Origin: Natronorubrum sulfidifaciens JCM 14089
GTDB taxonomy: Archaea; Halobacteriota; Halobacteria; Halobacteriales; Natrialbaceae
Assembly: GCF_000337735.1 (NCBI RefSeq)
Contig: NZ_AOHX01000047.1
Location: 78,743 to 127,196, forward strand
Reading direction: 5' to 3'
Length of the DNA stretch: 48,454 bases
The stretch's first letter is position 1. The number at the start of each line of letters is the position of its first letter. Made by a program: the position numbers and the translations under genes. Shown here in pieces: positions 4,896 through 39,798 of this stretch. A model generated the notes under the pieces. It had not been told where the DNA came from and made no database searches. It saw nothing but the letters and a program-made list of their open reading frames with translations.

Positions 4896-6386
4896 ATGTC
4901 CCGGAATCTCATCCGTGGTGTTCTCTCTATCGCGGGAGCAAACGTCGTCGTAATGCTTCTTGCGTTTCCGCTGACGCCGGTGTTGGTTCGGACTCTTGGA
5001 AGCGCCCAGTACGGCGAGTACGCGTTTATGCTCTCATTTCTCGGCGTTGCATGGGTGTTCGTCAACGGCGGTGTTTTCGACGGCGTACGAAAGTACATCG
5101 CCGAGGATCGAGCGGATGAACACTGGCAGAACTACGTGTTCGGGTTCTACTTTCGTATTGCGATCCTATTCGTCGTCCCGAGTTCGATCGTCGTCGCGCT
5201 CGCGGCGTATTCGGGTGTCGTGTCGTCCATACTTGGAACGCAGTTCACGACGTTTTTTTATCTCGTTGGACTGTTGCTCATCGCGAGACAGCTACGGGCC
5301 GTGGGACGGAGCGTCTTGATGGGGCTCGGCAACGAGCATCTCTCGGAACCGTTGCTGATCGCAGAGAAGTTCGTTTTCTGGCCGATCGCGATCGGGCTCG
5401 CCGCTGCCGGCGTCGGCGTCGCCGGAGTATTGATTGGACACATCGCTGCAGCGTTTCTCACCGCGGTTGCCGCGTTTGTGCTGCTCTCCCGATCACTTTC
5501 GCTCTCGTCGGTTTTCCACCGAGCGCCGTCTGATTTTCCGCGGCGAACGCTCCTCGGTTTCAACAACCAGACGATCGTCTTGATGTTTCTGTTAAATTCG
5601 CTTCTGTACACGGATATCCTCCTGCTCCAACCGATCGCAGGAAGTGACCAAGCCGGCTACTACCAAGCTGCGCTGGTGGTTGCTGAATTCCTCTGGGTTG
5701 TCCCTATCGCCGCCCAGACTGTACTCCTCCACACCTCGTCCGAGCTGTGGTCGAGTGATCAACAGGAACGAATCACGACGATGTCTGCCACTGTGACACG
5801 GTACGTGTTTCTCGTCACGATGCTGTTGAGCGTTGGTATCGCGGTGCTTGCTGACTCGTTCGTCCCACTCTACTACGGTCCCGATTTCGAGGCATCGATC
5901 ACACCGCTTCGACTGCTCCTTGTCGGTGTCGTCGGCTACTCAGTTGCGCGTCCGATTCTGGCGATCGGACAGGGGAAAGGGGCGCTTCGGGCACTCATCT
6001 ACGCAACGAGCGGTGCGGTCGCCCTTAATCTCCTGCTCAACATCATCCTCATCCCGCTGTACGGGATGCGCGGTGCAGCGGTCGCCACGAGCATCGGATA
6101 CGGCTCGATGCTCGTGTTTCACGTCTGGTGTGCTCGCCGGATTGGCTTCGAGCCACTGTCTGATCTTCGGGTTGGGCGTATCCTCGCGGCAGCACTTGTC
6201 ACCACAATCGTCATCTACCCGCTCGATGCTGCCATCGCCTCGAGTCTCCTCTCTTTGCTGGTCGTGCCGCCCATCGGGCTCGTCGTCTACGTTGGGACCG
6301 CGATCGCAGTCGGCGCGCTCGACCACGACGACATTGACGATCTGTATGAGCGTACTCCCGATCGCGTCGTGAAGCTGTTTTCGTGA
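4896..6386 (+). CDS. Wzx-type polysaccharide flippase (MOP superfamily)
   Basis: A 496-residue integral membrane protein with about 12-14 hydrophobic segments, the usual length for a lipid-linked oligosaccharide flippase of the MOP/Wzx type. It starts MSRNLIRGVLSIAGANVV and has the conserved early pattern of two TM helices, then LGSAQYGEYAFMLSF (the family's G..YG.Y motif). The later ILIPLYGMRGAAVATSIGY motif (P..G..GAA.A) is typical of the C-terminal half. It would move the glycan lipid across the cytoplasmic membrane after the GT steps. The homologous haloarchaeal role is played by AglR-type proteins. Neighbours are a GT4 gene and the GT-C-like membrane protein. Confidence 0.88.
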   Translation: MSRNLIRGVLSIAGANVVVMLLAFPLTPVLVRTLGSAQYGEYAFMLSFLGVAWVFVNGGVFDGVRKYIAEDRADEHWQNYVFGFYFRIAILFVVPSSIVVALAAYSGVVSSILGTQFTTFFYLVGLLLIARQLRAVGRSVLMGLGNEHLSEPLLIAEKFVFWPIAIGLAAAGVGVAGVLIGHIAAAFLTAVAAFVLLSRSLSLSSVFHRAPSDFPRRTLLGFNNQTIVLMFLLNSLLYTDILLLQPIAGSDQAGYYQAALVVAEFLWVVPIAAQTVLLHTSSELWSSDQQERITTMSATVTRYVFLVTMLLSVGIAVLADSFVPLYYGPDFEASITPLRLLLVGVVGYSVARPILAIGQGKGALRALIYATSGAVALNLLLNIILIPLYGMRGAAVATSIGYGSMLVFHVWCARRIGFEPLSDLRVGRILAAALVTTIVIYPLDAAIASSLLSLLVVPPIGLVVYVGTAIAVGALDHDDIDDLYERTPDRVVKLFS

Positions 6387-6513
6387 TCGGTACGGGGAGC
6401 AACGGACGCCTGTCTATCAGACACTGGAAAGGCGTGATTTCTCCCGTTCGAACGCCACTAACTAGCGTTACTATGCCAACCGTCATTACGGATGCTCCGG
6501 TAGCACGGGCCGA

Positions 6514-8304
6514 ATGAGCTCACGTCGCGATCTCTCTTTGAAACTACTGCTGGCCGTTGGGATCGCCTTGCTCTCGTATGCGTCGGTCGTCGTCGCGATG
6601 ACGCCGCCAGCTTCGGGCTACGAGATCTCGATCTATACTGCCTACCCCGTCGCATTCTGGATTTCGATTATCGTGACGATCGTTGCCGGACAGCTACTCG
6701 TTCTCGAGGACGTGCTCCGGTCGGAGCCCGCTGGCTACTGGAAGCGGGGGTACGCGCTGATCGTCGCTGCCAGCGGGCTGCTCTTGTTTTTGCCGACGAT
6801 GCGCTACCAGTACGTCATGGGGCGGGCGGATACGCTCACGTTCGCCGGCTCTATCGATTACATCACGGTCAATCACGCACTCCAGCCGGACAACTACTAT
6901 CCGATGTTGCACCTGCTTGCGGCGACGCTCTCGTTTCTCACGGGTATCGAACCGATCAGGATCATGCAAACGATTCCACCGCTGTTTTCGCTGGCGTTTC
7001 TGCTTGGGACCTACTGTCTGATTCGATATCTGTTCCCGGCGCGGCGTGAGTGGATCGTTGTTCTCCCGTTCGTCTCACTCCTGTTTGTCGGATTCGAGCA
7101 CCTGCACTTTACGCCGTACAATATGAGTTTTCTGTTGGTTCCGCTCGTTCTTCTCTACTGTCTGAAAGCGCAGGAACGAGCCGCAGTCTGGTCGAAAATC
7201 GTGATGGTCGTCTTGGTGACTGCGCTCGTATTCTATCACCCACTGACCGGGCTCCTCATCGTCGCTCTGTTCGCCATCGCACAGGTTCTCTCGAGGGTGC
7301 CGCGGTCGCTTCGGTTCGTCTCAGAACGCAAAGCCGTGCCGTCGGTGACGGTCAGTCTCCTCGTGCTCGTCCTGTTGTTCGCGTGGTATTCACGGTTCGA
7401 CACGATCGTTCTCAGCGCGAGTTCGATCGTTCTCGGCCGCGGTCCCTCCCAGTTCGAACACGCGACGGACGTTGCAGATCGGGTCTCGCCGACAGTCACC
7501 GATCTGCTCCGGGCCGGATTCACCACGTACGGTATGGAAGCACTTATCGGCGCAGCGACGGTCGCATTTCTCGGCATCCTCGTCTACAGTCATTACAGAC
7601 GACGGACACCCATCGATACCTACGTCGCGTGGTTTGCCGGGATTTTCACCGTCACCTTCGCTCTCGGTGCCGTCGCGTTTTTGGTTGACGTCATTTTCGA
7701 CCCGCTTCGATTCACCCGATACGGCATGCTTGCGGGTGGTGCCATCATCGGTGTCGGATTCCTGTTGCTGTACCGGTCGCGTGCCAGCACACGCTCGAGA
7801 CACGCGCTCCGGCTCTCGATGTATACGTTCCTCCTGGTTCTCGTCTCCATCTCAGTGGTCTTGCTCTTTCCGTCACCGGTTGCTGACACCGCGAACCTCC
7901 AGGTGACCGAACGAGAGGTCGAGGGGATGGACTGGGCCGTCACCAACGAGAACGAGACGATGCCGACACAGGACCACGGCGTCTTACAACACCGCCACAT
8001 CGACTACCTCTCGGACGGAACGGCATCGACGTGGGAACTGCGGGAACGGGACACGGCACCGCCGGACCACTTCGGCTACGACGAGCACGCGACGGCCGGA
8101 GAACACGAGAAGTACGATGAAGACACGTACCTCCTCGTCACGGAACTCGCTCGAGTCGAAAATCCGGCCCTGTATCCGAACTATCCCGACCATTGGCGTC
8201 ATACGCCCGCGGAGTTCCAGCGACTCGAGTCCGATCCGACGGTCGATCACGTGTATACGAATGGCGAGTTCGATACCTACATCGTCCGACCAACGAGCGA
8301 GTGA
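6514..8304 (+). CDS. large multi-spanning membrane protein, GT-C/polymerase-like
   Basis: A 596-residue protein with roughly 11-13 hydrophobic segments from residue 9 to about 455, followed by a soluble tail of about 140 residues rich in acidic residues, His and Tyr. The first large loop holds YVMGRADTLTFAGSIDY and QPDNYYPMLHLLAATLSF. An acidic first loop followed by a Y-P-helix resembles archaeal GT-C transferases or Wzy-like polymerases acting outside the membrane on dolichol-linked sugars. The tail contains EREVEGMDWAV and ends DHVYTNGEFDTYIVRP, like the extracytoplasmic ends of such enzymes. The exact family was not recognised. The flippase gene ends 127 bp upstream, which supports a role in glycan assembly. 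Confidence 0.6.
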   Translation: MSSRRDLSLKLLLAVGIALLSYASVVVAMTPPASGYEISIYTAYPVAFWISIIVTIVAGQLLVLEDVLRSEPAGYWKRGYALIVAASGLLLFLPTMRYQYVMGRADTLTFAGSIDYITVNHALQPDNYYPMLHLLAATLSFLTGIEPIRIMQTIPPLFSLAFLLGTYCLIRYLFPARREWIVVLPFVSLLFVGFEHLHFTPYNMSFLLVPLVLLYCLKAQERAAVWSKIVMVVLVTALVFYHPLTGLLIVALFAIAQVLSRVPRSLRFVSERKAVPSVTVSLLVLVLLFAWYSRFDTIVLSASSIVLGRGPSQFEHATDVADRVSPTVTDLLRAGFTTYGMEALIGAATVAFLGILVYSHYRRRTPIDTYVAWFAGIFTVTFALGAVAFLVDVIFDPLRFTRYGMLAGGAIIGVGFLLLYRSRASTRSRHALRLSMYTFLLVLVSISVVLLFPSPVADTANLQVTEREVEGMDWAVTNENETMPTQDHGVLQHRHIDYLSDGTASTWELRERDTAPPDHFGYDEHATAGEHEKYDEDTYLLVTELARVENPALYPNYPDHWRHTPAEFQRLESDPTVDHVYTNGEFDTYIVRPTSE

Positions 8305-12400: not shown

Positions 12401-13371
12401 AGGTCCACATCACAGGCGGGGCCGGGTTCGTCGGCTCCCACCTCGCCGACCGACTCGTCGATGCCGGCCACGACGTCACCGTCTTCGACAACGTCAGTCG
12501 CGGCGGGCGGGACCGACTCGAGGGAATCCTCGACGAGATCCGGTTCGTTGAGGGCGACGTTCGTGACCACGATGCGTTTGCCGACGCCGTCGACGATCCC
12601 GACGTCCTGTTCCATCTGGCCGCGATCAACGGGACGAAACACTTCTATGACCGTCCGCGGGCGGTCCTCGACGTGAACCTCGAGGGGGTCAAACACGCGA
12701 CACAGATCGCCGCCGGGCAGGATATCGACCGACTCGTGTTCGCGTCGTCCTCGGAAGTGTACGGGTTCCCGGAAACGTTCCCAACGCCGGAAACGCATCC
12801 GCTCCAACTGATGGACCCGACGAACCCCCGTTACAGCTACGCCGGCACGAAGATCCTCGGCGAACAGTACGTCATCCAGACGGCAGCGGCACACGAGTTC
12901 GCCTACACCATCGTTCGACCGCACAACTTCTACGGCGAGGCGATGGGGTACGACCACGTCATTCCGGAGTTCATCGAGCGACTGGTGACAGGGTCCGAAT
13001 TCACCATCTACGGCGACGGCACACAGACTCGGAGCTTCTGTTACATCGACGATGGGATTGACGCCATCGAACGAGCCGGGTTTGCCGACGCCGCTCGAGA
13101 TGAAATCTTCAACGTTGGCACGCAAGACGAGATTACGATCACCGAACTCGCATCAGCGCTGTTCGACGTGACAGGACGACGACCCGAGGTGACACACATC
13201 GAGTCCAAAGAGTTGTCAGGGTCGCCGGATCGTCGCCAGCCGGATCTCTCGAAAGCGCGCGACCTGTTGGGGTACGAGCCAACGACGTCGCTCGAGACGG
13301 GGCTTCGCCGGACCTTCGAGTACTATTATCGAGACCTCACCGGAAACGAGCCGGAACAATGGGAGTTCTGA
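12397..13371 (+). CDS. NAD-dependent epimerase/dehydratase (extended SDR)
   Basis: A 324-residue extended short-chain dehydrogenase acting on a nucleotide sugar. The Rossmann loop is TGGAGFVGSHLADRL (residues 6-20), followed by the acidic FDNVSRGG strand end, FHLAAINGTKHF, FASSSEVYG and the catalytic Y148-x3-K152 in YSYAGTK. IYGDGTQTRSFCYIDD is the usual substrate-domain motif. SSSEVYG instead of the dehydratase S-T/S-D-E-VYG leans toward an epimerase, but 4,6-dehydratase activity cannot be excluded. Such activity would supply the 4-keto sugar needed by the upstream dehydratase-like protein. Start and stop overlap both neighbours, so it is in the middle of the operon. Confidence 0.87.
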   Translation: MKVHITGGAGFVGSHLADRLVDAGHDVTVFDNVSRGGRDRLEGILDEIRFVEGDVRDHDAFADAVDDPDVLFHLAAINGTKHFYDRPRAVLDVNLEGVKHATQIAAGQDIDRLVFASSSEVYGFPETFPTPETHPLQLMDPTNPRYSYAGTKILGEQYVIQTAAAHEFAYTIVRPHNFYGEAMGYDHVIPEFIERLVTGSEFTIYGDGTQTRSFCYIDDGIDAIERAGFADAARDEIFNVGTQDEITITELASALFDVTGRRPEVTHIESKELSGSPDRRQPDLSKARDLLGYEPTTSLETGLRRTFEYYYRDLTGNEPEQWEF

Positions 13372-14258
13372 TCACTGGCGCGACCGGACTGGTCGGCTCA
13401 CAGTTGGTCGATCGACTCGCCGCCGACCGAACGGTGTTCGCCGGCGTCCGTCGGCCCGCCGACACCGAGCTCGAACGCGCCACGCCGGTCGAACTGCAGT
13501 TGGGCCGACACGGCCTCGAGACGACGCTGGATTGGACACGCGTCGACGCCGTTGTCCATACGGCAGCGTACACGGATGCACACGGAAGCGTCGACGAGCC
13601 CCTGCGCTGTTTCGACGTTAACGCAACTGGAACGGCGGCAATCCTCGAGGCGGCTCGCTCGGCATCAGTCGACCGCGTCGTCGCGCTCTCTTCGTACCAC
13701 GTCTACGATGGGAGTCAAACCGGTCGGCTCTCGGAGTCAGCTGCGACGGACGCCGGCACGCCGTACGCGGCGAGTAAGCTGGCTGCCGACGCCCAGTGTT
13801 GCGCATATGATCGGCAGTACGACATGACCGTCAGCGTCGTCCGGCCGTTCAACGTGTACGGCCCCGGCGGACGGCCCCATCAGGTCGTCCCGTCGTTTAT
13901 TTCACAGGCACTCTCGGATGGCGTTATCGAGCCCTATCCCGGCAATCCGGTCCGGGATTTCCTCTACGTCGACGATCTGTGCGATGCGATCGTCGCCTTG
14001 CTCGAGCGAGAGGTGTCGGGGCCACTCAACGTGGGACGAGGAACGGGAACGTCGATCCACGAGCTCGCACAGACGGTCGCGTCGATCGCCGAAGCACATA
14101 CCGACCGGTCGATTCGTGTCATTCATGACGGCGACCTCGAGCCGACCGATCCCACGATTGCGGACCCATCGAGAATCGAACACGAACTGAACTGGACCGC
14201 GGAGACCACGCTTTCGGACGGACTCAATCAAACGATAACCTATGAACGAACGAGATAA
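13359..14258 (+). CDS. NAD-dependent nucleotide-sugar epimerase/reductase (SDR)
   Basis: A 299-residue SDR with TGATGLVGSQLVDRL at residues 6-20, VHTAAYTDAHGSVDEP, ALSSYHVYDGS and the catalytic Y136-x3-K140 in YAASKLAAD. VRPFNVYGPGG and RDFLYVDDLCDAI are normal substrate-side motifs. It is shorter than its operon partner and resembles 4-reductases or epimerases finishing a deoxysugar. The ATG lies 13 bp inside the preceding gene and its own end overlaps the next by 17 bp, so the three are very probably made from one mRNA. The exact sugar is unknown. Confidence 0.85.
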   Translation: MGVLITGATGLVGSQLVDRLAADRTVFAGVRRPADTELERATPVELQLGRHGLETTLDWTRVDAVVHTAAYTDAHGSVDEPLRCFDVNATGTAAILEAARSASVDRVVALSSYHVYDGSQTGRLSESAATDAGTPYAASKLAADAQCCAYDRQYDMTVSVVRPFNVYGPGGRPHQVVPSFISQALSDGVIEPYPGNPVRDFLYVDDLCDAIVALLEREVSGPLNVGRGTGTSIHELAQTVASIAEAHTDRSIRVIHDGDLEPTDPTIADPSRIEHELNWTAETTLSDGLNQTITYERTR

Positions 14259-15639
14259 CGAGACACTCGAGAAACGAAACGTCTGCGTCCTCGGACAGGG
14301 ATACGTCGGACTCACGTTGTCCGCCGTGCTCGCCCAGTCCGGGTTCGACGTCGTCGGTCTCGAAAAAGACGACGAACGGTATGAAAAATTGACACAGGGC
14401 GTCCCACACTTCGACGAGCCGGAACTCGAGAAAACGATCTCGACCCAGTGCGAACTCGGCACGCTCCGATTCGGACGGTCGACCGACCATCCCGACGCGG
14501 GACACGCCTCGGCGTACATCATCGCCGTCGGCTCGCCGCTCGATGAGAACAAGACGCCGAATACGTCGATCGTTGAATCAGCGGTCGACTCGGTCACTGA
14601 GGTTCTCGAGTCGGGCGATTTGGTCGTCCTTCGGTCGACGATTCCGGTCGGGACGTCCGAACGAATCGTCGACCAGATCGAGACTGAAACCGGTCTCGAG
14701 GTGGGCAAGACACTCTCGCTCGTTCACGCACCCGAGCGGACGCTGCAGGGGGCAGCGCTGCGAGAGCTTCGCCACCTCCCGCAGGTGATCGGCGCTGACG
14801 ACAGAGGCTCGGTCATCGAAGCCGAGCGCCTCTTCAGACACGTCACCGACACGATACTGCGCGTCGAGTCGCTGCGTGCCGCGGAGTTGGTCAAACTGAT
14901 GGACAATACGTATCGCGACGTGACGATCGCACTCGGGAACGCGTTCGGCGAAATCGCACGATCACACGGGTTAGACGGGACACGACTGATCGAAGCCGCA
15001 AACAAGGGGTACGATCGAAATCAGATCAAATCGCCGGGGCTCGGCGTCGGTGGTGGCTGTCTCCCCAAAGACCCCTATCTCGTCCTCGAGAGTCTCCCCG
15101 ACGAAACCGAGCCCGGCCTGTCAGCGGCAACGTCTCTCATTCGGGATGCGAGACAGCTCAACGAGTCGATGCCACACATCGCGACCGACCAACTCGAGGC
15201 GGCGCTCTCCGGTCTGGGCAAGGAGCCGGGCGAGTTGCGATCGCTCGTATTCGGGATCGCGTTCAAAGGTGAGCCGGCGACGAACGACATCCGACACACG
15301 CCTGCTGCGCCGGTGATCGACTTCCTCGCCGAGCGCGGCCCAGTCGACGGCTACGATCCGAACGTCGAGCCCGAAAAAATCGCATCCCTCGGTGCCCGAC
15401 CGGTAACGGACGACGACGCAACCGTCACGGACGTCGCGACACGTGATGCCTACGACGTGATCGTGCTCGCGAACAACAATCCGACGTTCAAAGAACTCGA
15501 GTTGGCGTCCGTCGCGGATGCAGCGCCACCGGACGCAGTGCTTCTCGACGGCTGGAACCTCCTCGACGAGCGGACGGTCGAACAGATGGGACTGTCTTAC
15601 GTCGCCATCGGCGGTGACGTGACGTCTCGTCGGTTCTGA
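14242..15639 (+). CDS. nucleotide-sugar dehydrogenase (UDP-glucose/GDP-mannose dehydrogenase family)
   Basis: A complete 465-residue NAD-dependent dehydrogenase making a uronic acid nucleotide. Seen are VCVLGQGYVGLTLSAV (N-terminal Rossmann), IIAVGSPLDENKTPN, LRSTIPVGTSE, LVHAPERTLQG, LVKLMDNTYRDVTIAL, the catalytic cysteine in GVGGGCLPKDP (Cys273), and the C-terminal GIAFKGEPATNDIRHTP that binds the nucleotide. It is distinct in sequence from the partial wecC-like gene at the left edge, so the island can make at least two uronic acid donors. It is the last gene of the overlapping four-gene operon. ManNAc, GlcNAc and glucose are all possible substrates. Confidence 0.9.
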   Translation: MNERDNETLEKRNVCVLGQGYVGLTLSAVLAQSGFDVVGLEKDDERYEKLTQGVPHFDEPELEKTISTQCELGTLRFGRSTDHPDAGHASAYIIAVGSPLDENKTPNTSIVESAVDSVTEVLESGDLVVLRSTIPVGTSERIVDQIETETGLEVGKTLSLVHAPERTLQGAALRELRHLPQVIGADDRGSVIEAERLFRHVTDTILRVESLRAAELVKLMDNTYRDVTIALGNAFGEIARSHGLDGTRLIEAANKGYDRNQIKSPGLGVGGGCLPKDPYLVLESLPDETEPGLSAATSLIRDARQLNESMPHIATDQLEAALSGLGKEPGELRSLVFGIAFKGEPATNDIRHTPAAPVIDFLAERGPVDGYDPNVEPEKIASLGARPVTDDDATVTDVATRDAYDVIVLANNNPTFKELELASVADAAPPDAVLLDGWNLLDERTVEQMGLSYVAIGGDVTSRRF

Positions 15640-29477: not shown

Positions 29478-30143
29478 TTATCGTGTCTCGAGTGTCCCAA
29501 CGACGTCAGGAATCCGCTCGCCGACGGCCGCCTGCTCGACGTGGGCGGTGGCCCGCGGGTCGGGGTTGGGGCCGTCCTCGAGCAGCACCTGCACGGCCTC
29601 GAGGCCGGCGTTCGTCGCGCCGTAGATGTCGGCCTCGACCTCGTCGCCGATGTAGACGGCCTCGTCGGGGGCGACGTCGAGTTCGCCGACGATCGCATCG
29701 AACGCACGCCGGTCCGGTTTGCCGGCCTCGAGTTCGCCGGTGACGAGCGCAGCGTCGAAGGCTCGTTCCCAGCCGAGCGTCGACAGTTTGTCCCGCTGGG
29801 CGCGAACGGGACCGTTGGTGAGCAGTCCGACGCGATACTCCGCTTTGAGATCCTCGAGCATGGCTTCGACGCCGGGTAACGGCTCGAGCGTCTCGGCGAT
29901 CGTCTGCCGGTAGGCGTCGGCGACGGCGGCCGGCTCGGCGTCGGTCTCCCGGCCCTCGAGCAGGTCGGCGAAAATCGGTTCTCTGGTCTCGCGCGTGAGA
30001 TTGCGCCGATGGGCCTCGAGATACGCCTCGCGTGTCAGCGGTGGCGCACCGGCAGTGGCGGCTGCCTCCTGCAGAATTGTGGTTCGGTCCTGTGTGGGCA
30101 CGGCGAGTGTGTAATCGAGGTCGAAGACGACCGCCCGTGGCAT
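29478..30143 (-). CDS. HAD superfamily hydrolase
   Basis: A 221-residue HAD phosphatase of the class with a helical cap. Motif I is VFDLDYTLAVP (nucleophile and acid Asp), motif II lies in VGLLTNGPV, motif III is the Lys region near FDAALVTGELEAGKPDRRAF, and motif IV is EAVYIGDEVEADIYGATNAG. The cap contains LEPLPGVEAMLEDL. Phosphoglycolate- or haloacid-type substrates are possible. ATG 30143 replaces a GTG at 30152, since MPRAVVFDLDYTL is the standard start. Neighbours give no hint to substrate. Confidence 0.88.
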   Translation of the reverse strand: MPRAVVFDLDYTLAVPTQDRTTILQEAAATAGAPPLTREAYLEAHRRNLTRETREPIFADLLEGRETDAEPAAVADAYRQTIAETLEPLPGVEAMLEDLKAEYRVGLLTNGPVRAQRDKLSTLGWERAFDAALVTGELEAGKPDRRAFDAIVGELDVAPDEAVYIGDEVEADIYGATNAGLEAVQVLLEDGPNPDPRATAHVEQAAVGERIPDVVGTLETR

Positions 30144-30244
30144 AGCAGTCACAGGGGGCTCGAGCAGATTGAAACTATCCCTTTTCGATGGCGTCGAAAC
30201 CTGCTCGAAAACGGACGGAAAATCGTTCGGCCGATCGCTGCAGG

Positions 30245-31522
30245 TCAGTCGTCGCTTGGGTGGGCCGACGGCTCGCTGTCGCCTTCGAGCAACGGAACGA
30301 CGGCGGCTTCGATCCTGTCCGAGTACTGCATGAGCGTGGTTCCAAGGATGCTCATGAACAGGACGTAGCCGACAGCGAACGCGTAGATGTCGTCCGCGAC
30401 GCCTTCAGCGAGTCCGATGCCAGCGCCAGCGAGTGCGATACTCGCAATGATGAGCGAGAACTCGCCACGGGTGGTCATCCCGAGTCCGACCCGGAGCGAT
30501 CGGCGTTCGTCGAGGTCGTAGATCCGCCCACCGAGGTAGCCACTGACCAGCTTTGTCGGAGTGGTCAGTAGGACGGCCGCCGCGATGAGCCACAGGACGT
30601 CGAGAAACAGCGTCGGATCGGTGATCAGCCCGATCCAAAAGAAAAACACGGCTGCGAAGGTGTCACGGAGCGGCTCGAGCAAGTTTTCTAAGTCGTGGAC
30701 GTGTGCCGTTGAGGAGAATGCCATCCCGACGAAGAACGCGGCCACAGCTTCACTGACCCCCAGCGAGAGTGCTGCCCCCGAAATGAGGACTGTAATGCCG
30801 AGCGCTCGCAGGACGGTGAACTCGTTGGAGTCGGTTTCCAGACTGCGCTGAAACCACGCCGTCCCCAGATAGACTAACAGCAGCAAGACGATAATGAAGC
30901 CGACGGCGATCCCGATCTGACCCAGCGCCTCGCCGACGTCACCGCCGCCGAGAACGAGTGCCGACGCAATCGCCAGATAGACCGCGATAAACAGGTCTTC
31001 ATAAACCAACGTCCCGAGCATCGGGTTCGACTCGTCGTTTGCGATCCAGCCCAGATCGATCAAGGATTTCGTGATGATCGCACTCGAGGAGATGTAGACG
31101 ACCCCCGCAGTGAGAAAGGCTGGGAGAAAGGAACCAAAGAGGACGTAGCCAAGGACCAGCCCGGCACCGAAATTGATCACGAGATCGACGGTCCCGGCCT
31201 TCCCGATCTGTTCTTTGGCGGCGATGAGCCGATCGAGATTGAACTCGAGACCGAGGAAGAACAACAGGAGGACGATCCCAAGCTCGGCACCCACATAGAT
31301 GAAGTCGGTCTCGAGCAGGGCGAGCTCGGCACCGTGTGGGACGAGATCCGTCCCGAGCAGCGCCGGGAAGTCGATTCGTCCGAGAACGTACTCCCCGAGA
31401 ACCATGCCGATGACGATGTAAAACGGTATCACCGACTGATTGATCCGGTTTGCCAACAGTCCAGCAAGGGCAACAGCAGCGAAGAGCACACCGACGTCGA
31501 GTAGTGCGGTTTCACCAGCCAC
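30245..31522 (-). CDS. CPA2 cation/proton antiporter, KhtU-like (no RCK domain)
   Basis: A 425-residue membrane protein with about 12 TM helices of the monovalent cation:proton antiporter-2 family. Landmarks are LLANRINQSVIPFYIVIG, LLLFFLGLEFNLDRLIAA, and AFFVGMAFSSTAHVHDLENL, all typical for KefB/KhtU. It has no C-terminal nucleotide-binding domain; the regulator is the separate gene 37 bp upstream. GTG 31522 is preceded by GGAGGTG at a normal distance, which supports this start. In Bacillus, KhtU exports potassium in exchange for protons and is controlled by KhtT. Ion specificity in this organism is inferred. Confidence 0.87.
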   Translation of the reverse strand: MAGETALLDVGVLFAAVALAGLLANRINQSVIPFYIVIGMVLGEYVLGRIDFPALLGTDLVPHGAELALLETDFIYVGAELGIVLLLFFLGLEFNLDRLIAAKEQIGKAGTVDLVINFGAGLVLGYVLFGSFLPAFLTAGVVYISSSAIITKSLIDLGWIANDESNPMLGTLVYEDLFIAVYLAIASALVLGGGDVGEALGQIGIAVGFIIVLLLLVYLGTAWFQRSLETDSNEFTVLRALGITVLISGAALSLGVSEAVAAFFVGMAFSSTAHVHDLENLLEPLRDTFAAVFFFWIGLITDPTLFLDVLWLIAAAVLLTTPTKLVSGYLGGRIYDLDERRSLRVGLGMTTRGEFSLIIASIALAGAGIGLAEGVADDIYAFAVGYVLFMSILGTTLMQYSDRIEAAVVPLLEGDSEPSAHPSDD

Positions 31523-31559
31523 TGTCGGCCACCTCCACCGTCGTCATTCCAGCCATGGA

Positions 31560-32063
31560 TTAGTCCAATCCCGACCCGTCGTCGCCGCTAAGCAGCGTTT
31601 TGAACTGTTCGAGGTCCTCGTTCGTCCCGACAGCGATGATCGTGTCTCCCTCGTCGAGACGTTTTTCAGGTTCTGACGCCGGAATCACGTCCTCGCCGCG
31701 CTGGACGGCGACGATAGCGACATGGATTCGGCCATCCGCAAGCACCTCGGCGAGGGACCGTCCCTCGAGCGGGGAGTCCGCCGGCACGTCGAACCATTCG
31801 ATGTTGGTTCCGTCCCCCAGCGTCGTCGCCTTGTCCTCTGTCTTGATCGGCTGGAAGTACGCCCCCTCGAGGATGGTTCCGACCGTCCGAGCGAGCTGGT
31901 CGGACAGTTCGAACAGCCGCTCTGAGTCGGCATCGTCGTCCGCTTTCAGGAACACGTCACGCCTGCCCGTGTTGTGGGTGACGATGACGAGCGTCTTGCC
32001 GTCCTCGAGGTCGATTTCAAACTTCTTCCCGACGCCAGGAAGGTCGGTTTCGGTAATCGGCAT
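31560..32063 (-). CDS. KhtT-like TrkA-C regulatory subunit
   Basis: A 167-residue cytoplasmic protein. Its N-terminal 80 residues form an alpha/beta region (ETDLPGVGKKFEIDLEDG, LARTVGTILEGAYFQP). The C-terminal part is a TrkA-C (RCK-C) domain with FDVPADSPLEGRSLAEVL, IVAVQRGEDVIPASEPEKRL and EGDTIIAVGTNEDLEQFKTL. TrkA-C domains bind nucleotides or other ligands and gate antiporters. The gene is upstream of the KhtU-like antiporter in one operon. It diverges from the paired antiporter operon at 32211, with a 147-bp shared upstream region. Confidence 0.88.
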   Translation of the reverse strand: MPITETDLPGVGKKFEIDLEDGKTLVIVTHNTGRRDVFLKADDDADSERLFELSDQLARTVGTILEGAYFQPIKTEDKATTLGDGTNIEWFDVPADSPLEGRSLAEVLADGRIHVAIVAVQRGEDVIPASEPEKRLDEGDTIIAVGTNEDLEQFKTLLSGDDGSGLD

Positions 32064-32210
32064 ACGTCAGTGGCTCTCGCAGTCCCTATTAAAACAATGC
32101 CTGGTTGCTCGCTCGAGCCCCGTCGCTCGGCGTCGCTTCCGTGTCACAGCGGAGAGACGCGGCCCAGCTTTCGATACTGTTAATCCACTTCGACAGAACG
32201 ACCCCAACGA

Positions 32211-33965
32211 ATGGTTTCCGAGGCAGTCCTTACTGTCGATCTCGCGATTATCCTGCTCGCGGCGACACTTGTCGGATTTATTGCAAAGCAGACGGGCCAG
32301 CCGACGGTCATCGCCTACATCATTACGGGAGTGATCCTGGGACCGGCAGCCCTCGGCATCGTTGAAGTCACCGAGATGACGGAACTGCTCTCCGAGTTGG
32401 GGCTTGCGTTCTTGCTGTTCTTGCTCGGGATCAAGATGCGACTCGACGAGATTCGTCACGTCCTCGTCCCGATCGTCAAAATATCGATTCCACAGATGGC
32501 GGCGGTTGCCATCGTTAGCATGGGTGTTTCGATGGCACTCGGCTTTAGCCTCCTCGAGGCGTTTATTATCGGGCTCGCGCTGATGTACAGCTCGACGGCA
32601 GTCGTCATCAAGATGTTGACTGATAAGGACGACGCGACCTCTCTACACGGCAAAATCGACGTCGGGGTGTTGCTCGTCCAGGACGTCGTCGTCGTTATTC
32701 TGCTGGCCGTGCTGGCAGCCGGTCGACCCGACGATGTGGCCGAGATCGCGACGACGCTGGCCGTCGTGCTCACGCTGGTTGCGATCATTACCGTCGCCGC
32801 GATCGGGGCCTCTCGCTACCTGTTGCCGGTCGTCTTCCGCCGGATCGCGGACAACAAGGAGGTCTTTTTCCTGATCGCCATCTCGTGGGCGTTCATCTTC
32901 GTATTCGTCTCCGACAACATCAACCTCTTTCTCGCACCGCTTGGCATCGAGGCCTACATGTCTATCGAGATGGGCGCGTTCTTGGCCGGGTTGGCGATCG
33001 CCCAACTCCCCTACAGCAAGGAGCTCAAAGACCGTGTTAACCCGCTGACTGACCTGTTCGTCATGGTGTTTTTCGTCACGGTCGCACTGGACCTTGAGCC
33101 GAGTCAGTTGCTTGCCTACTCACAGGAAGCCGTCATCGCCGCGCTGGTGTTGATGCCCGCCAAATTCGTCATCTTCTTCCTGCTGATCGACTGGCAACAG
33201 TTCAGCCTCGAGACGACGTTTCTGGGCAGCATCAACATGATGCAGATCAGCGAGTTCGGAATCATCGTCACCGCCGTCGCCGTCGAAGGTGGCTTCGTCG
33301 GCGCGGAGGTGCTCGGCTTCGTCACCTTACTCGCGCTGTTCACGATGAGCGCGTCGGTGTATTTCATCGAGTACAACCGCCAGCTGTTCGCCCGCCTCAG
33401 ACCGGCGCTCTCGCGGTGGGACACCGATGACGAGTTCGAGGGAGGCGGCCGAGAATACCGCGACCACGCCGTCGTTATCGGCTACGACGAGGTCACTCGT
33501 CGCGCCCTCCCGATCCTCGCCGCCCACTACGACGATGTTATCGTCGTCGACCGGACGGTCGAACACATCGAAGCGCTCGATGATGAGGGGTATGACACGC
33601 TGTACGGTGATTTCCGAAATTCGACGATCCGGAAGGACGCGGCCCTGAAAAAGGCCGACTTCGTCCTCTCGTCGTCGGTCGAACCTGCAGTGAGTAAAGC
33701 GCTCCTCAGAGAGGCCGGCGAGGACGCGACCGTCTTCGTCGAGGCCGAGCAAATCGATGACGCACACGACCTCTACGACCACGGTGCCCACTGTGTAATC
33801 ATGAGCGACCACCTCGCTGCCGAACGACTCGCGGAATCGCTCGAGACGTATCTCGAAGACGAGGAGACGCTGATGGAAGCCATCGAGGACGACCTCGAGC
33901 TGTTGCACCGCTCGGTGACGTTCCCGAATGCGATCGACCACACTGGAGGTGAGGTCGATGACTGA
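32211..33965 (+). CDS. CPA2 antiporter with degenerate TrkA-N domain (pair 1, subunit 1)
   Basis: A 584-residue protein with about 12 TM helices (residues 1-390) of the KefB type: IAKQTGQPTVIAYIITGVIL, LLFLLGIKMRLDEI, and AFLAGLAIAQLPYSKELKDR. A cytoplasmic RCK region follows. The expected NAD loop GxGxxG is replaced by GYDEVTRR (from Gly424), with FVLSSSVEPAVSKAL and VFVEAEQIDDAHDLYDHGA after it. A non-binding or altered RCK is likely. Its stop overlaps the start of the next gene by 8 bp, so both are made together. The paralogue at 37544-39280 has the same loop. Probably a potassium or sodium/proton antiporter (family knowledge). Confidence 0.9.
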   Translation: MVSEAVLTVDLAIILLAATLVGFIAKQTGQPTVIAYIITGVILGPAALGIVEVTEMTELLSELGLAFLLFLLGIKMRLDEIRHVLVPIVKISIPQMAAVAIVSMGVSMALGFSLLEAFIIGLALMYSSTAVVIKMLTDKDDATSLHGKIDVGVLLVQDVVVVILLAVLAAGRPDDVAEIATTLAVVLTLVAIITVAAIGASRYLLPVVFRRIADNKEVFFLIAISWAFIFVFVSDNINLFLAPLGIEAYMSIEMGAFLAGLAIAQLPYSKELKDRVNPLTDLFVMVFFVTVALDLEPSQLLAYSQEAVIAALVLMPAKFVIFFLLIDWQQFSLETTFLGSINMMQISEFGIIVTAVAVEGGFVGAEVLGFVTLLALFTMSASVYFIEYNRQLFARLRPALSRWDTDDEFEGGGREYRDHAVVIGYDEVTRRALPILAAHYDDVIVVDRTVEHIEALDDEGYDTLYGDFRNSTIRKDAALKKADFVLSSSVEPAVSKALLREAGEDATVFVEAEQIDDAHDLYDHGAHCVIMSDHLAAERLAESLETYLEDEETLMEAIEDDLELLHRSVTFPNAIDHTGGEVDD

Positions 33966-35625
33966 CCTACTCACCGCAGTTTCGATAATTTTCATCATCG
34001 CCGGCCCGTTCTTGCTGGTAGCAAACCGATTCAAACTGCCGACAGTCCCGCTGTTAATTCTCGCAGGGATCATCGCGGGCCTGTTCATCGACGAAGGGGC
34101 GACGCTGGAACTTGCTCAGTACGGGATCGCCCTGCTCGTGTTCTCCTTTGGCCTCAGTATCCAGTTCTCCGCCGTTCGGACGGTGTTTGCCGACAGCGAA
34201 GTCGCTGCGGTCGGGCAGGTGTTCGTGATTGGCACACTCGGAGTCGGCTCCGGGCTCGTCCTTGGGGTTCCGCTCGCGGAATCGATCTACCTCGGAATCG
34301 CTGCGGCGCTTTCATCGACGATCGTTGGAACCGCACTGCTCGATACGGAGATTCGACGGAATCTCGTTCACGGCCGACTCGCCAAATCGATCCACTTCAT
34401 TCAGGATCTGCTCGCGATCGTCTTCCTGCTCGTGTTGGGTGCCGGCACACTCGCCGCAGACCCGATCGCGGCCCAACTCGGCTACGGGCTCGCGTTGCTC
34501 GCCGCTGCCGTGCTCGTCAACCGATACCTGTTCGACATGATCGGGCGGTTTGCCGGCGGCTCGGACGAGTTGATGATCATCAGTGTCATCTCACTGCTCG
34601 TGGTGTTCGTCGGCGCAGCCGAAAGCGCTGGCATCTCCATCGTCGTCGGGGCGTTCGCTGCCGGCCTCGCGGTCCGTCACGAGCCCACGGAGTATCTCGG
34701 CCTGTTTAACGGCCTCGAGTCGATCAAGGACTTCTTTGTCGCGATCTTCTTCCTTACGGTCGGCGCGCTCGTGGCGTTTCCGACCCTCGAGAAGCTCCTC
34801 ATCGTCGCTGTCCTCGTGGTTCTGACGGGGGTCGTGAAACCAGCGGTCGCGACAGCGATTCTGATGTACAAGGGGTATGAGGCACGGTCGGCAACGCTGA
34901 CCAGTTTGAGCACTGACCAAGTCAGCGAGTTCGCACTCATCATCGCGATCGAAGCGTTGCTGTTGGGCTTGCTCTCTCAGTTGGTATTCGATGCGATCAT
35001 CTTCGCCGCGGCCGTGACGATGATCACCTCGAGTGTGAGCCAACGCTATGACGAACGAATCCACCGGGGGCTGGCAAGCCGTGGCTTGCTCAGGGGCACC
35101 TACGGCAAAATCGACGAGTGGAGTGCGGTCCCCGAAACGATCTCAGATCACGTCATCATCGCCGGATACGGTCGGCAAGGACGGTTCCTAGCCGAGACCT
35201 GTGAGCGGCTCGGACAGCCGTACGTCGTGATCGAGAACGATCCGGTTCGCCGGCGCACAGTCGAATCCGAGTGTGCGGCGTTCGTCTTTGGCGATGCAAT
35301 GGAGTCGTACACTTGGGAGAAAGCGAACGCCGAGGAGGCCAAACTCATCGTCTCGACGGTCGATTCCGAGCCCGTTTCCAGGCGTCTCCTCTCACTTGAG
35401 TTTTCGGCGGACGTTATCCTACGGGAAAGCGACCGAACGACGGCACTGGATCTGTTCGAGGCAGGTGCACTGTACGTCAGTGTCTCGGAACTGCTCGCCG
35501 GGCAACGGCTGTCCCAACAGCTCCAAGACGTGTTAGACGGTAAGCTGACGCCTGCGGAACTTCGCGACGAACAGCTGACCGACCTCAGGCCACGCACCGA
35601 CGCGGTCTCCCACCGCCAGCGCTAG
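33958..35625 (+). CDS. CPA2 antiporter with intact TrkA-N domain (pair 1, subunit 2)
   Basis: A 555-residue protein with about 12 TM helices starting MTDLLTAVSIIFIIAGPF; landmarks include VANRFKLPTVPLLILAG, FSFGLSIQFSAVRTVF and VGAFAAGLAVRHEPTEYLG. The C-terminal RCK domain keeps the dinucleotide loop GYGRQGR (from Gly403), then YVVIENDPVRRRTVE and LIVSTVDSEPVSRR. ATG 33958 overlaps the preceding stop, so translation is coupled. The frame is open to 33928, but the extra residues overlap the upstream gene and are not family-like. With its partner it may form a heteromeric transporter. It ends before a MITE and a mirror-image second operon. Confidence 0.9.
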   Translation: MTDLLTAVSIIFIIAGPFLLVANRFKLPTVPLLILAGIIAGLFIDEGATLELAQYGIALLVFSFGLSIQFSAVRTVFADSEVAAVGQVFVIGTLGVGSGLVLGVPLAESIYLGIAAALSSTIVGTALLDTEIRRNLVHGRLAKSIHFIQDLLAIVFLLVLGAGTLAADPIAAQLGYGLALLAAAVLVNRYLFDMIGRFAGGSDELMIISVISLLVVFVGAAESAGISIVVGAFAAGLAVRHEPTEYLGLFNGLESIKDFFVAIFFLTVGALVAFPTLEKLLIVAVLVVLTGVVKPAVATAILMYKGYEARSATLTSLSTDQVSEFALIIAIEALLLGLLSQLVFDAIIFAAAVTMITSSVSQRYDERIHRGLASRGLLRGTYGKIDEWSAVPETISDHVIIAGYGRQGRFLAETCERLGQPYVVIENDPVRRRTVESECAAFVFGDAMESYTWEKANAEEAKLIVSTVDSEPVSRRLLSLEFSADVILRESDRTTALDLFEAGALYVSVSELLAGQRLSQQLQDVLDGKLTPAELRDEQLTDLRPRTDAVSHRQR

Positions 35626-35702
35626 GGGCTGCGTTCGTCACGTTCGGAGACTGGACCGTCAGCGTCGGTGACCCGTCGCGGAACGCGACAAACGGTTGAT
35701 TG

Positions 35703-35811
35703 ATACTGTCGGACAGAAGTCAGTAAGAAGTCAATCGCGAATTCGCGGCCGTCACTCTCGGGACGGCCGCAGTAGAGCGATCGATCTTCGAATAGTTCTG
35801 TCCGACAGTAT
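35703..35811. mobile_element. MITE-like element with perfect 16-bp terminal repeats
   Basis: ATACTGTCGGACAGAA at 35703-35718 is repeated in inverse orientation at 35796-35811. A second, internal hairpin has 9-bp arms GCGGCCGTC (35745-35753) and GACGGCCGC (35762-35770). The 109-bp element has no coding sequence and fills the middle of the 237-bp gap between two convergent antiporter operons. The ends remind me of haloarchaeal IS4/ISH8-type elements, but this is memory, not a match. No clear target duplication was found. Confidence 0.65.
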
Positions 35812-35862
35812 GACCACTGGCGGATCGCAACACAACGAGGAGACAGCCGAAGCCGTCTCCGG

Positions 35863-37551
35863 TCACTCCGTGTCGCCCCACCGACCGCGACTCGCGAATC
35901 CATGTCGCTCGAGGGCGTCGAAGTAGTCGAGATGGTCGTCTTTGAGCGTCTCCGTGTCGGTCTTGTTGGTTCCAATGGCGTAGACGAGTTCTGTGAGGTG
36001 ATCTCCGGCGAGCACGTTCGGAACGCTCACGTAGGTCGCACCCTGCTCGAGTAGCGCCGTCGCTTCGGCCGCGGTTTCCGATCGCAGTATCACGTCCGCG
36101 TCGGTTTCGACCTCGAGGACGGCCTCGGAGACGGGACGGTGGTCGACAGTCGAGACGACCAGCGACGCCTCACTGACGCGAGCTTTCGTCCACGGATAGG
36201 TGGACAGGGCATCGCCGAACACGTAGTTGTGACACTCCGAGCGCACGTCGTCCCAGAGCACGGGGTCGTTATCCATGACGACGTACTCGCGGCCGAGGCG
36301 TTCACAGGTTTCGACGACGCGACGTCCCTGCCGGCCATAGCCGACGATGACGATATGATCCTCGAGGTCGTCGTCGACCGCACTCCGTTCGTCGATCTTG
36401 CGCGTCTGTCGTCCGGCGACGAGCCGCTCGATAAGCGACCGATAGACCGGCTCCTCGTACCGTCTGGCAACCGATGTCAGGATCATCGTCGCAGCAGCCG
36501 CGAGGATGATCGCATCGAAAAGCGTCTCGGAGATGCTTCCGAGCAACAGCGCCTGAATCGCGACCACGAGCGACAGTTCGCTGATCTGGTTGAGACTCGT
36601 ACTCGAGAGGAACGCGGTTCTGGCGTCGTACCCCTCGTAAACGAACGCGAGCATGAGCACGAGCGGGTTGGCAACCAACACGAGGACTGCGAGCGTAAGC
36701 GCCACCACGAGCACGCTGGCACTGGGTATCGACACGAGTGCGCCGAGCGTGACGAAGAAGATTGCGACAAAGAAGTCACGAATGGATGCGATCCCGTTTT
36801 GAACGCCGAGCGCGGAGACGTCGTCTCCCCGAATCGCGATCCCAGCGGCGAACGCTCCGACGACGATCGAGACGCCGGCGAGTTCGGCCCCTGCAATGAA
36901 CCCGATAAGGATCGAGATACTCCCCATCATCACGAGTTCGTCCGAGCCACCGGCAAGTCGGACGAGCAGCGGGAATCCGTGTCGGTAGATCAAAAGCGCC
37001 ACGAGCAGGAAGATCACGCCGTAGCCGATCTTCGAGGTCACGAGCGTCGACGTGTACTGCTCGGCCGAGAGAACGACGATCAGGCCGATCGCGAGCAGAT
37101 CGTCGAAGAAATGAACTGAGGAGGCGAGTCGGCCATGGACGAGGTTGCTCCGAATCTCTTGCTCGAGTTCGCGTGCGCCGACGATGGTCGAACTCAGCGT
37201 GGCGGCGATCGCGAAGTAGACCGCGTTCTCGAGGCCGAAGCCGAACACGAGATGGGCCACGCCGAACGCGATCGGGCCGACGACGAGGAGCTGTGTGACG
37301 GCTGCCGTCTCGGCGTCTCTGAGCACCGACTCAACGGAACTGAAGTCCGTCCGGAAGCCGAACGTGAACACCAGAAACGCGATCCCCCACTGGGCAAGCT
37401 CGATAAGCTGTGGCTCCGCGACAATCGTGCCGGTGACCAGCCCCGCCAGTAGATAAAACGGGATCGGCGAGAGCGAGAACTGATTGGCGATCAGCAGGAA
37501 CACACCAGCTGTCACAAAGACGACCGCGAGTGCAGTGATCAGGTCAGTCAT
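35863..37551 (-). CDS. CPA2 antiporter with intact TrkA-N domain (pair 2, subunit 2)
   Basis: A 562-residue paralogue of 33958-35625. It begins MTDLITALAVVFVTAGVF, has LLIANQFSLSPIPFYLLAGL, FTFGFRTDFSSVESVL and VGAFAAGIAIRGDDVS in the membrane part. The RCK domain keeps the intact dinucleotide loop GYGRQGRR (from Gly404), then YVVMDNDPVLWDDV and LVVSTVDHRPVSEAVL. Start 37551 is preferred, with an ATG at 37557 giving two more residues; both overlap the preceding stop (37544-37546). It is convergent with pair 1. The membrane segments and gene order match pair 1, so the operon appears duplicated. Confidence 0.9.
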   Translation of the reverse strand: MTDLITALAVVFVTAGVFLLIANQFSLSPIPFYLLAGLVTGTIVAEPQLIELAQWGIAFLVFTFGFRTDFSSVESVLRDAETAAVTQLLVVGPIAFGVAHLVFGFGLENAVYFAIAATLSSTIVGARELEQEIRSNLVHGRLASSVHFFDDLLAIGLIVVLSAEQYTSTLVTSKIGYGVIFLLVALLIYRHGFPLLVRLAGGSDELVMMGSISILIGFIAGAELAGVSIVVGAFAAGIAIRGDDVSALGVQNGIASIRDFFVAIFFVTLGALVSIPSASVLVVALTLAVLVLVANPLVLMLAFVYEGYDARTAFLSSTSLNQISELSLVVAIQALLLGSISETLFDAIILAAAATMILTSVARRYEEPVYRSLIERLVAGRQTRKIDERSAVDDDLEDHIVIVGYGRQGRRVVETCERLGREYVVMDNDPVLWDDVRSECHNYVFGDALSTYPWTKARVSEASLVVSTVDHRPVSEAVLEVETDADVILRSETAAEATALLEQGATYVSVPNVLAGDHLTELVYAIGTNKTDTETLKDDHLDYFDALERHGFASRGRWGDTE

Positions 37552-39280
37552 CGCCATCACCTCCCGGGCCGGTCCGCCGACGCTGGCGATCGGTCGGATC
37601 ACTGCGTGCACGCTCGGTGATCCGTTCGATGTCACGTTCGACTGCTTCGTCGAACGATGCCGGGTCGGAGATGTACCACTCGAGGTACTCGCTCAGCTTT
37701 TCGGCGGTCAGGTAGGTACTCATGATCACGTATGCTGCGCCGCGGTCGTAGAGTTCGCGTGCGTCGTCGATCCGCTCGGCCTCGACGAAGACGGTCGCAT
37801 CGTCACTCACCTCATTGAGCAGCGCCTTGTTCACGTCCAACTGAACGGTCGAACTCAGGACGAACGAGGCGTTTTTCAGATTTGACTCCTTACGAATCTC
37901 GCCGTGACGGAAATCGCCGTAGATATAGTCGTACCGCCCTTCCTCCTCGAGTTCCTCGATATGGTCCGTCTGGCGGTCGATGATGACGACGTCCCCGTAC
38001 TCTTCCTCGAGCAACGGCAACACCTGCTGGGTGACCTCGTCGTAGCCGATGGCAATGGCGTGGTCGTCGTACGATTTCAGATCGATATCGGTTTTCGATT
38101 CGGACTCGAAGCGGCTGAACCACGGCTTCGATCTGGCGTAGAGCGTGTGGTTGTAGTTGATGATGTACGTCGAGACGCTCATCGTCATGAGTGCCATCAG
38201 ACTCAGATAGCCGAGGACGTCCGTGTCGATGTAGCCCTGCTGGACTGCAAGCGCACCGACGACCAGCGAGAACTCACTGACCTGAACCATGTTGATCGCC
38301 CCGAGGAAGGAGGTTTCGACGCTGAAATCCTCCCGGTCGATCAGATAGAACATGATCCAGAAGTTGCCGACCATCAACACCACCGAGGCGACGATCGCCT
38401 CGAGCCAGTAGGCAAGCAGGTCGTCGGCCGCGAGTCGCAGCCCGATGCTGGCGAAGAACACGAGGATAAAGAAGTCCGTGATCGGCGTAATTCGATCCTC
38501 GAGTTCCTTGCTGTAGGGCAACTGGGCGAGGCTGATGCCGGCGAGGAAGGCCCCGACCTCGAGGGAGAGATCGAACTGTTCGGAGACGGCAATAAAGAGG
38601 AAGGCCCACGCGATGGAGACGACGAGGAAGACGTCCTTGTTGTCCGCGATCCGGCGGAACAGTTTCGGCAGGAGATACCGCGAGGAGGCAATCGAGAAGA
38701 CACCGATAAACGTCATCATGACGGCGATGACGCCGAGTGTGGTCGCAATCTCGCTTGCGCTGCCGAGTTCGTCGGCACCGAGCAAGGCGAGGATGATGAC
38801 GAGATAGATGTCCTGAACGATGAGGACGCCGACGTCGATCTTGCCCGGTAGTGCGGTGATCTCGTCTTTGTCGGTCAGGATCTTGACGATAATCGGCGTC
38901 GCGCCGAAGACGGTCGCCAACGCGATGATGACGACTTCCGTGGGATCGAACCCGAGCGCCCACGCGACTGCGAGTGCGAGTGCCGTCTGGAGGATCGTCT
39001 GCCAGACGGCGATGTTGATGATCGGGCGTAAAATCTCCCGAATGTCGTCGAATCGCATCTTCATCCCGAGCAAAAAGAGCAAGAATCCGAGCCCGAGTTC
39101 GGCCATGCTCTCGACGAGGCCCTCCTCGGTGACGATGTCAAACATCACCGGGCCGAGGATCAGCCCTGTCAGAATGTAGGCGATGATCGTGGGCTGGCCC
39201 GTCTGGCGGGCGATCAGGCCGACGATCGTCGCGACGACGATAATAATCGCAAAGTCAGCCGCGAGGGCAATTTCACTCAT
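37544..39280 (-). CDS. CPA2 antiporter with degenerate TrkA-N domain (pair 2, subunit 1)
   Basis: A 578-residue paralogue of 32211-33965. IARQTGQPTIIAYILTGLIL, LLFLLGMKMRFDDIREIL and AFLAGISLAQLPYSKELEDR identify the KefB-like membrane part. The cytoplasmic RCK loop is GYDEVTQQ (from Gly412), lacking the glycine pattern needed for dinucleotide binding. The region after it reads FVLSSTVQLDVNKAL and VFVEAERIDDARELYDRGA, just as in pair 1. ATG 39280 is taken as start; a GTG at 39295 would add five residues. It is cotranscribed with, and overlaps, the second subunit. A methylglyoxal synthase gene follows 149 bp upstream on the same strand, so cotranscription is possible. Confidence 0.9.
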   Translation of the reverse strand: MSEIALAADFAIIIVVATIVGLIARQTGQPTIIAYILTGLILGPVMFDIVTEEGLVESMAELGLGFLLFLLGMKMRFDDIREILRPIINIAVWQTILQTALALAVAWALGFDPTEVVIIALATVFGATPIIVKILTDKDEITALPGKIDVGVLIVQDIYLVIILALLGADELGSASEIATTLGVIAVMMTFIGVFSIASSRYLLPKLFRRIADNKDVFLVVSIAWAFLFIAVSEQFDLSLEVGAFLAGISLAQLPYSKELEDRITPITDFFILVFFASIGLRLAADDLLAYWLEAIVASVVLMVGNFWIMFYLIDREDFSVETSFLGAINMVQVSEFSLVVGALAVQQGYIDTDVLGYLSLMALMTMSVSTYIINYNHTLYARSKPWFSRFESESKTDIDLKSYDDHAIAIGYDEVTQQVLPLLEEEYGDVVIIDRQTDHIEELEEEGRYDYIYGDFRHGEIRKESNLKNASFVLSSTVQLDVNKALLNEVSDDATVFVEAERIDDARELYDRGAAYVIMSTYLTAEKLSEYLEWYISDPASFDEAVERDIERITERARSDPTDRQRRRTGPGGDGDD

Positions 39281-39429
39281 CAGTGAGTAGTTCACTCATG
39301 CATAGGTTCACTGCTGTTGTTATAGGTTGTCTTCTCCGTTCGGAACCGCTCGCACGTCGTGAGCGCTTAGACGGACTACTGGCGGCACGGCCACCGATCC
39401 CGCCGCCCGTGATCGGGTCACAGCCCGTC

Positions 39430-39798
39430 TCAGTCGGCCAACCCCTCGATCAGAAACGTCGCGGACGCAAGATTCGTCGCCAGTGCGGTGTCGTGGACGT
39501 CACAGATCCGCAACAGCGCGGAGATGTCGGGCTCGTGGGGCTGGGCGCGCAGTGGGTCTCGAAGGAAGACGATCCCATCGAGTTTGTTTTCGGCGACCTC
39601 CGACCCGATCATCAGGTCCCCACCGAGCGGCCCCGACTCCTTGCGCTCGACCTCGAGGTCGGTTGTCTCCATCAGTCGCTTGCCGGTCGTCCCGGTTGCG
39701 ATCAGGTCGTACGCAGCCAACTGCGTTTCGTGTGCCTGTGCAAACTCGAGGAGGTCCGGCTTCTTCTCGTCGTGGGCGATGAGTGCGACGCGAGTCAT
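39430..39798 (-). CDS. mgsA: methylglyoxal synthase
   Basis: A 122-residue enzyme converting dihydroxyacetone phosphate to methylglyoxal and phosphate, a bypass of lower glycolysis. Motifs are complete: LIAHDEKKPDLLEFA, LIATGTTGKRLME (phosphate site), SGPLGGDLMIG (catalytic Asp), and RDPLRAQPHEPDISALLRIC followed by DVH. Length fits the family. ATG 39798 starts at MTRVALIAHDEKK; the longer frame to 39912 is not family-like. It diverges from a glyoxalase-like gene (112-bp gap), so the maker and a possible remover of methylglyoxal are side by side. It also lies upstream of the pair-2 antiporter operon. Confidence 0.92.
   Translation of the reverse strand: MTRVALIAHDEKKPDLLEFAQAHETQLAAYDLIATGTTGKRLMETTDLEVERKESGPLGGDLMIGSEVAENKLDGIVFLRDPLRAQPHEPDISALLRICDVHDTALATNLASATFLIEGLAD

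Follow-up and report, generated by a model that had tools for sequence, protein, structure and literature searches.

Paired CPA2 antiporter genes of haloalkaliphilic archaea: a candidate two-subunit exchanger with one intact and one charge-inverted RCK site

Two neighbouring operons in the window analyzed here, a stretch of 48,454 nucleotides from Natronorubrum sulfidifaciens, each encode two CPA2 antiporters with an RCK domain, one retaining the nucleotide-binding loop GxGxxG and the other lacking it, and the question is what keeps two such unequal proteins together. The first gene of each pair is designated F and the second S; the pairs are convergent, each reading F then S, with the S genes tail-to-tail (Table 1). 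The earlier note had described both pairs, with GYDEV in the first protein (Gly424 and Gly412), GYGRQG in the second (Gly403 and Gly404) and an 8 bp gene overlap in each; all of this was reproduced, Gly412 of F-II being placed by alignment and the overlap being exact, ATGACTGA in both pairs.

Table 1. Coordinates of the antiporter genes and related features in the window.
Feature	Position	Strand	Remarks
F-I: CPA2-RCK subunit, QD + Lys transport site, GYDEVT loop (Gly424)	32211..33965	+	clade F, 100 support
S-I: CPA2-RCK subunit, intact GYGRQG loop (Gly403), QD + Lys	33958..35625	+	clade S, 100 support
F-I/S-I overlap, 8 bp, ATGACTGA = S start + F stop	33958..33965	+	
F-I RCK domain, acidic pocket D426, E427, D447, D467, E511	33456..33962	+	
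F-II: CPA2-RCK subunit, QD with Asn for Lys, GYDEVT loop (Gly412)	37544..39280	-	
S-II: CPA2-RCK subunit, intact GYGRQG loop (Gly404), DD with Asn for Lys	35863..37551	-	
F-II/S-II overlap, 8 bp, same ATGACTGA	37544..37551	-	
KhtTU-like operon: CPA2 membrane protein (30245-31522) and TrkA_C protein (31560-32063)	30245..32063	-	not part of pair

All four window proteins match PF00999 (the membrane domain, E 1e-31 or better) and PF02254 (TrkA_N, the RCK N-lobe) above the curated cut-offs, and the domain search returned no match to TrkA_C (PF02080, the RCK C-lobe) in any of them. PF00999 is matched nine times in the genome, and five of the matches lie inside the window. Against the NCBI subfamily model TIGR00932 the four proteins score 160, 166, 72 and 75 bits, all below the cut-off of 238.3, and are thus divergent members of CPA2; the best score against the KefC/KefB equivalog is 146 bits for a cut-off of 752. 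A KefC-like fold is predicted for both F and S, as both AlphaFold2 models match KefC first and then NapA (pLDDT is 82 for S and 69 for F, the F model being only moderate). Profile comparison of the RCK domains places F nearest to GsuK and YbaL, and S nearest to YbaL, GsuK and KefC. Sequence identity is 52% between F-I and F-II, 49% between S-I and S-II and about 25% between F and S, which indicates an old duplication of the whole pair and not a recent repeat.

To trace the distribution of the two genes, F and S were searched for independently (threshold 1e-30), and both searches gave one and the same set of 25 among 145 Halobacteria genomes, with nothing beyond it. The loci that were fetched comprise 216 raw pairs, including some loci reached twice, of which 188 are full and 158 non-identical. 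Gene order is always F then S across the 216 pairs, no pair is split, no F-S gene fusion was seen, and 136 of the 158 non-identical pairs have an overlap of exactly 8 bp. Each F has an S next to it save at a contig end, an N run or a broken gene; the five F genes without a mate are accounted for by contig ends (L066, L084), an N run (L154), an insertion (L038) and a stop (L043). No lone S occurs in the fetched loci; the S search did return a short piece of an S gene lying on a contig of its own (G054 C18). The tail-to-tail arrangement of S genes is found at 23 loci in the genome survey, that of the window counted. In the interrupted F gene of L038 the insertion (14985-15380) contains stops, measures a few hundred bases and lies near the TM5 QD motif, with the reading frame well kept on either side.

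By the earlier note, its proposal would have been refuted had the pairs been rare or had the GYDEV form occurred alone as a functional transporter; neither outcome was observed. In a larger sample F is present in 65 of 391 Halobacteria genomes and 36 of 86 genera, including 7 of 10 genomes of the window's genus and 5 of 52 of another genus (Halorubrum, judging by its named members), and no intact GYDEV form was found alone. Three contigs binned as Salinibacteraceae, Bacteroidetes and Gemmatimonadetes MAGs (L062, L064, L067) also bear F, at about 69% identity; this is likely to be mis-binning of the bacterial MAGs, and gene transfer may be the alternative.

Phylogenetic analysis resolves F as one clade and S as another, each with 100 support, and their internal branching largely matches, so that the pair arose in a single event and was afterwards duplicated as a unit; the F-S pair is older than its duplications. 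Two loci (L042, L085) are mixed, their F falling with type I in the tree and their S with type II (the types are defined below by their transport motifs), which may reflect a change of partner; the partners are thus apparently exchangeable. The nearest relative of F outside the family in the phylum sample (L118, 6780-8441) belongs to a genome outside Halobacteria and is a single unpaired gene whose GMGRFG loop is intact, and no unpaired relative of S above about 234 bits was found in the same sample. This suggests that site loss in F arose along with pairing, and L118, whose place in the tree is unsure, is a candidate representative of the unpaired ancestral condition.

The asymmetry of the RCK loops is as regular as the pairing: GxGxxG is present in none of the 158 F proteins and in 135 of their 158 S partners, a pattern that, with the recurring 8 bp overlap, lies very far outside what chance would give. 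In KefC the phosphate of AMP is bound by R409 and R496 and its ribose by D429 and D472 (PMC11150392). At the position aligned with R409, S has Arg (R406) in 127 of 158 and F an acidic residue (E/D427) in 125 of 158; at that of R496, Arg (R489) is found in 149 of 158 S proteins and an acidic residue (E511) in 133 of 158 F proteins. The acidic residue aligned with the ribose aspartate D429 is kept in both (E/D426 in 156 of 158 S, D/E447 in 158 of 158 F). The substituting residues of F are conserved in their turn (D426, beside E/D427, in 143/158, D447-R448 in 143/158, E511 in 133/158), which indicates a pocket that is charge-inverted and not merely decayed. The conclusion of the earlier note that the asymmetry is kept for function is borne out to this extent, selection on the loop difference between F and S being well supported; its term "degenerate" holds for the F loop in that GxGxxG is lost throughout, and undersells the conserved, charge-inverted pocket. 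Its proposal that half of the sites bind nucleotide agrees with the 135 pairs in which S alone has GxGxxG, but S lacks the motif in the other 23 of 158, so that a single nucleotide site does not hold for every pair. The residue aligned with the glutathione-binding R498 of KefC is variable in S (Arg in 20/108) and mostly acidic in F.

Fourteen of the 23 pairs whose S lacks GxGxxG form a type III clade, with R427 in F and D403 and E/Q405 in S. The loops there read GY(S/N)R in F and D(F/L/Y)(E/Q)(H/Y)GG in S, the loop charges being swapped between the partners (L011, L012 at 12934-14730, L028, L134, L135, L161, L165, L177, L178, L181, L184-L186 and L188). Loop charges in F and S are associated (Fisher p about 1e-15), an association carried by the type III clade and one further case; coevolution of charge between F and S was not significant once the tree was taken into account, and the association is suggestive at most. 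The acids E511 and E513 of F align with E210 and E212 of MthK exactly or one residue off, in a local match that is weak (E 1.5). In MthK these two residues are Ca2+ ligands, and an MthK-like Ca2+ site in F can be put forward as a hypothesis.

The TM5 aspartate of the transport site is present in 155 of 158 F and in all 158 S. KefC carries QD, the K+/H+ motif, and ND or DD is found in Na+/H+ exchangers (PMC11150392). Type I pairs have QD and the lysine in both subunits, as does KefC; in type II pairs F has QD, S has DD, and Asn replaces Lys in both. Matching of the membrane lysine between partners (K with K, N with N) was considered as evidence of coupling and rejected, as it was not significant in a tree-corrected test and the changes on the tree are too few. 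QD is kept in 155 of 158 F proteins, and the remaining three, all of one clade, have QN (L022 at 5664-7349, L113 at 4917-6602, L187 from 301) beside S partners that keep Asp. The D156N variant of KefC has no bound K+ (PMC11150392), and the QN forms of F are natural candidates for transport-dead subunits. The transported ion and the stoichiometry are not confidently readable from these motifs.

The reading that we prefer, at somewhat better than even confidence, is that F and S together form a single antiporter in which both are obligate, most likely as an F:S heterodimer that has one nucleotide site. This antiporter would be a Kef-like (CPA2) cation/H+ exchanger whose subunits, encoded by overlapping genes, are produced in step and joined through both their membrane domains and their RCK domains. 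The RCK domain of S would bind adenine nucleotide, as that of KefC binds AMP; that of F, with its Rossmann fold kept and acids in place of the phosphate arginines, would not be expected to bind nucleotide phosphate and would more likely present a surface to its partner S, perhaps with a cation bound. A single nucleotide site per dimer would in that case control the exchanger, and the system would serve the homeostasis of pH, K+ and Na+, mainly in haloalkaliphiles. A more elaborate form of the same arrangement, which we regard as rather doubtful, is a two-input gate in which S senses adenine nucleotide and the acid-lined pocket of F (Table 1) senses a cation, each dimer having one site of either kind; its asymmetry would be comparable to that of heterodimeric ABC exporters in which one of the ATP sites is degenerate.

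Strict operon pairing could also reflect two homodimers that are needed together, and the pair might accordingly encode two separate homodimeric antiporters whose activities are both required (for example for different ions or pH ranges), with F under cation control or none and S under nucleotide control. RCK homodimers are usual, the transport motifs of type II partners do differ (QD in F versus DD in S), and the correspondence of E511/E513 to the MthK ligands would suit a separately controlled F. Against this stand the lack of a single split pair among 216 despite many duplications of the pair, the same transport motif in both partners of type I, and the QN forms of F, which would be idle alone; retention of that clade while S always keeps Asp is what would follow if F is able to rely on its partner. 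Separate antiporters are on this balance unlikely. Simple decay of the F loop into a functionless remnant, to which the disappearance of GxGxxG from every F might point, is highly improbable, because decay would scatter the replacements and D426, D447-R448 and E511 are instead conserved.

A comparably unlikely arrangement is that F2 and S2 homodimers come together via their RCK domains in a larger complex containing both, in the manner of TM1088A/TM1088B, the Trk gating ring of Thermotoga maritima. That system, the closest precedent for an RCK pair from two genes, likewise has overlapping genes and one RCK protein without a site: one binds AMP through two arginines, the other does not, and A:A and B:B homodimers are assembled within an octamer (PMC4380455). 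However, TM1088A and TM1088B are soluble Trk regulators with no fused transporter. Neither F nor S has a match to the TrkA_C lobe, and the RCK domain of KefC forms a dimer and not a ring (PMC6957272), which makes both docked homodimers and the hetero-oligomeric RCK ring of the earlier note improbable; docking would moreover mean that dead F2 dimers are kept in the transport-dead F clade.

Comparison with other known systems brings out what would set an F:S heterodimer apart. The E. coli K+/H+ exchangers KefC and KefB (8BXG, 8BY2) share fold and domain order with F and S, and KefC resembles them further in the QD motif of F and type I S and in the AMP phosphate arginines that S retains. KefC itself, however, forms a homodimer that has two sites for AMP and works with the soluble KefF (PMC11150392), whereas the F-S pair consists of two distinct antiporter proteins, the charge of the F site is inverted and R498 is not conserved. 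GsuK, a K+ channel and by profile the closest solved relative of the F RCK domain, combines an RCK1 that has no GxGxxG with an RCK2 that is intact, and nucleotide is found on RCK2 only (PMC3510474); although it has both RCK domains on one chain and a ring assembly, it shows that one degenerate and one intact RCK domain can make a working pair. KhtTU-type antiporters are also two-gene CPA2 systems, and a relative adjoins the window's pairs (Table 1), but their second gene encodes a small soluble TrkA_C regulator and not an antiporter.

KhtTU-like genes recur beside pairs in about ten other loci. The type II pair of the window is adjoined by mgsA (methylglyoxal synthase) and a glyoxalase-family gene, and in the region 29478-39798 the antiporter block parts a HAD hydrolase gene from mgsA. 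The distance between mgsA and the HAD gene is 0.1-2.6 kb in all seven related genomes known to be without pairs and 4-16 kb, with the antiporters in between, in 11 of 13 genomes with pairs; the block thus sits at an old mgsA-HAD junction. A link to methylglyoxal, which recalls Kef physiology, was therefore discarded, mgsA being a neighbour by position only. The named carriers include Natronococcus, Natrialba, Natronorubrum, Natrarchaeobius, Natronolimnohabitans, Halorubrum vacuolatum, H. alkaliphilum and soda-lake MAGs; they are mostly haloalkaliphiles, those of Natrialba being alkaliphilic, which makes it likely that the pair serves cation balance and pH homeostasis under alkaline conditions. 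Exceptions to this trend, such as Halorientalis salina, Saliphagus and Halobium, have divergent forms of the pair.

To our knowledge, the CPA2 exchangers of known structure are homodimers. A search of the open-access literature found no described heteromeric CPA2 pair, in line with the earlier note, which knew of none of this kind, nor a heteromeric RCK assembly in a CPA2 exchanger; hetero-RCK assemblies are already known, and it is an obligate heteromeric CPA2 exchanger that would be new. If heteromeric, the F-S pair would provide a naturally asymmetric exchanger whose protomers and RCK sites are open to mutation one at a time, an approach that is difficult with homodimeric KefC. The antiporters of haloalkaliphilic archaea are poorly known, and the F-S family points to a defined set of genes for the control of pH and cations in these organisms.
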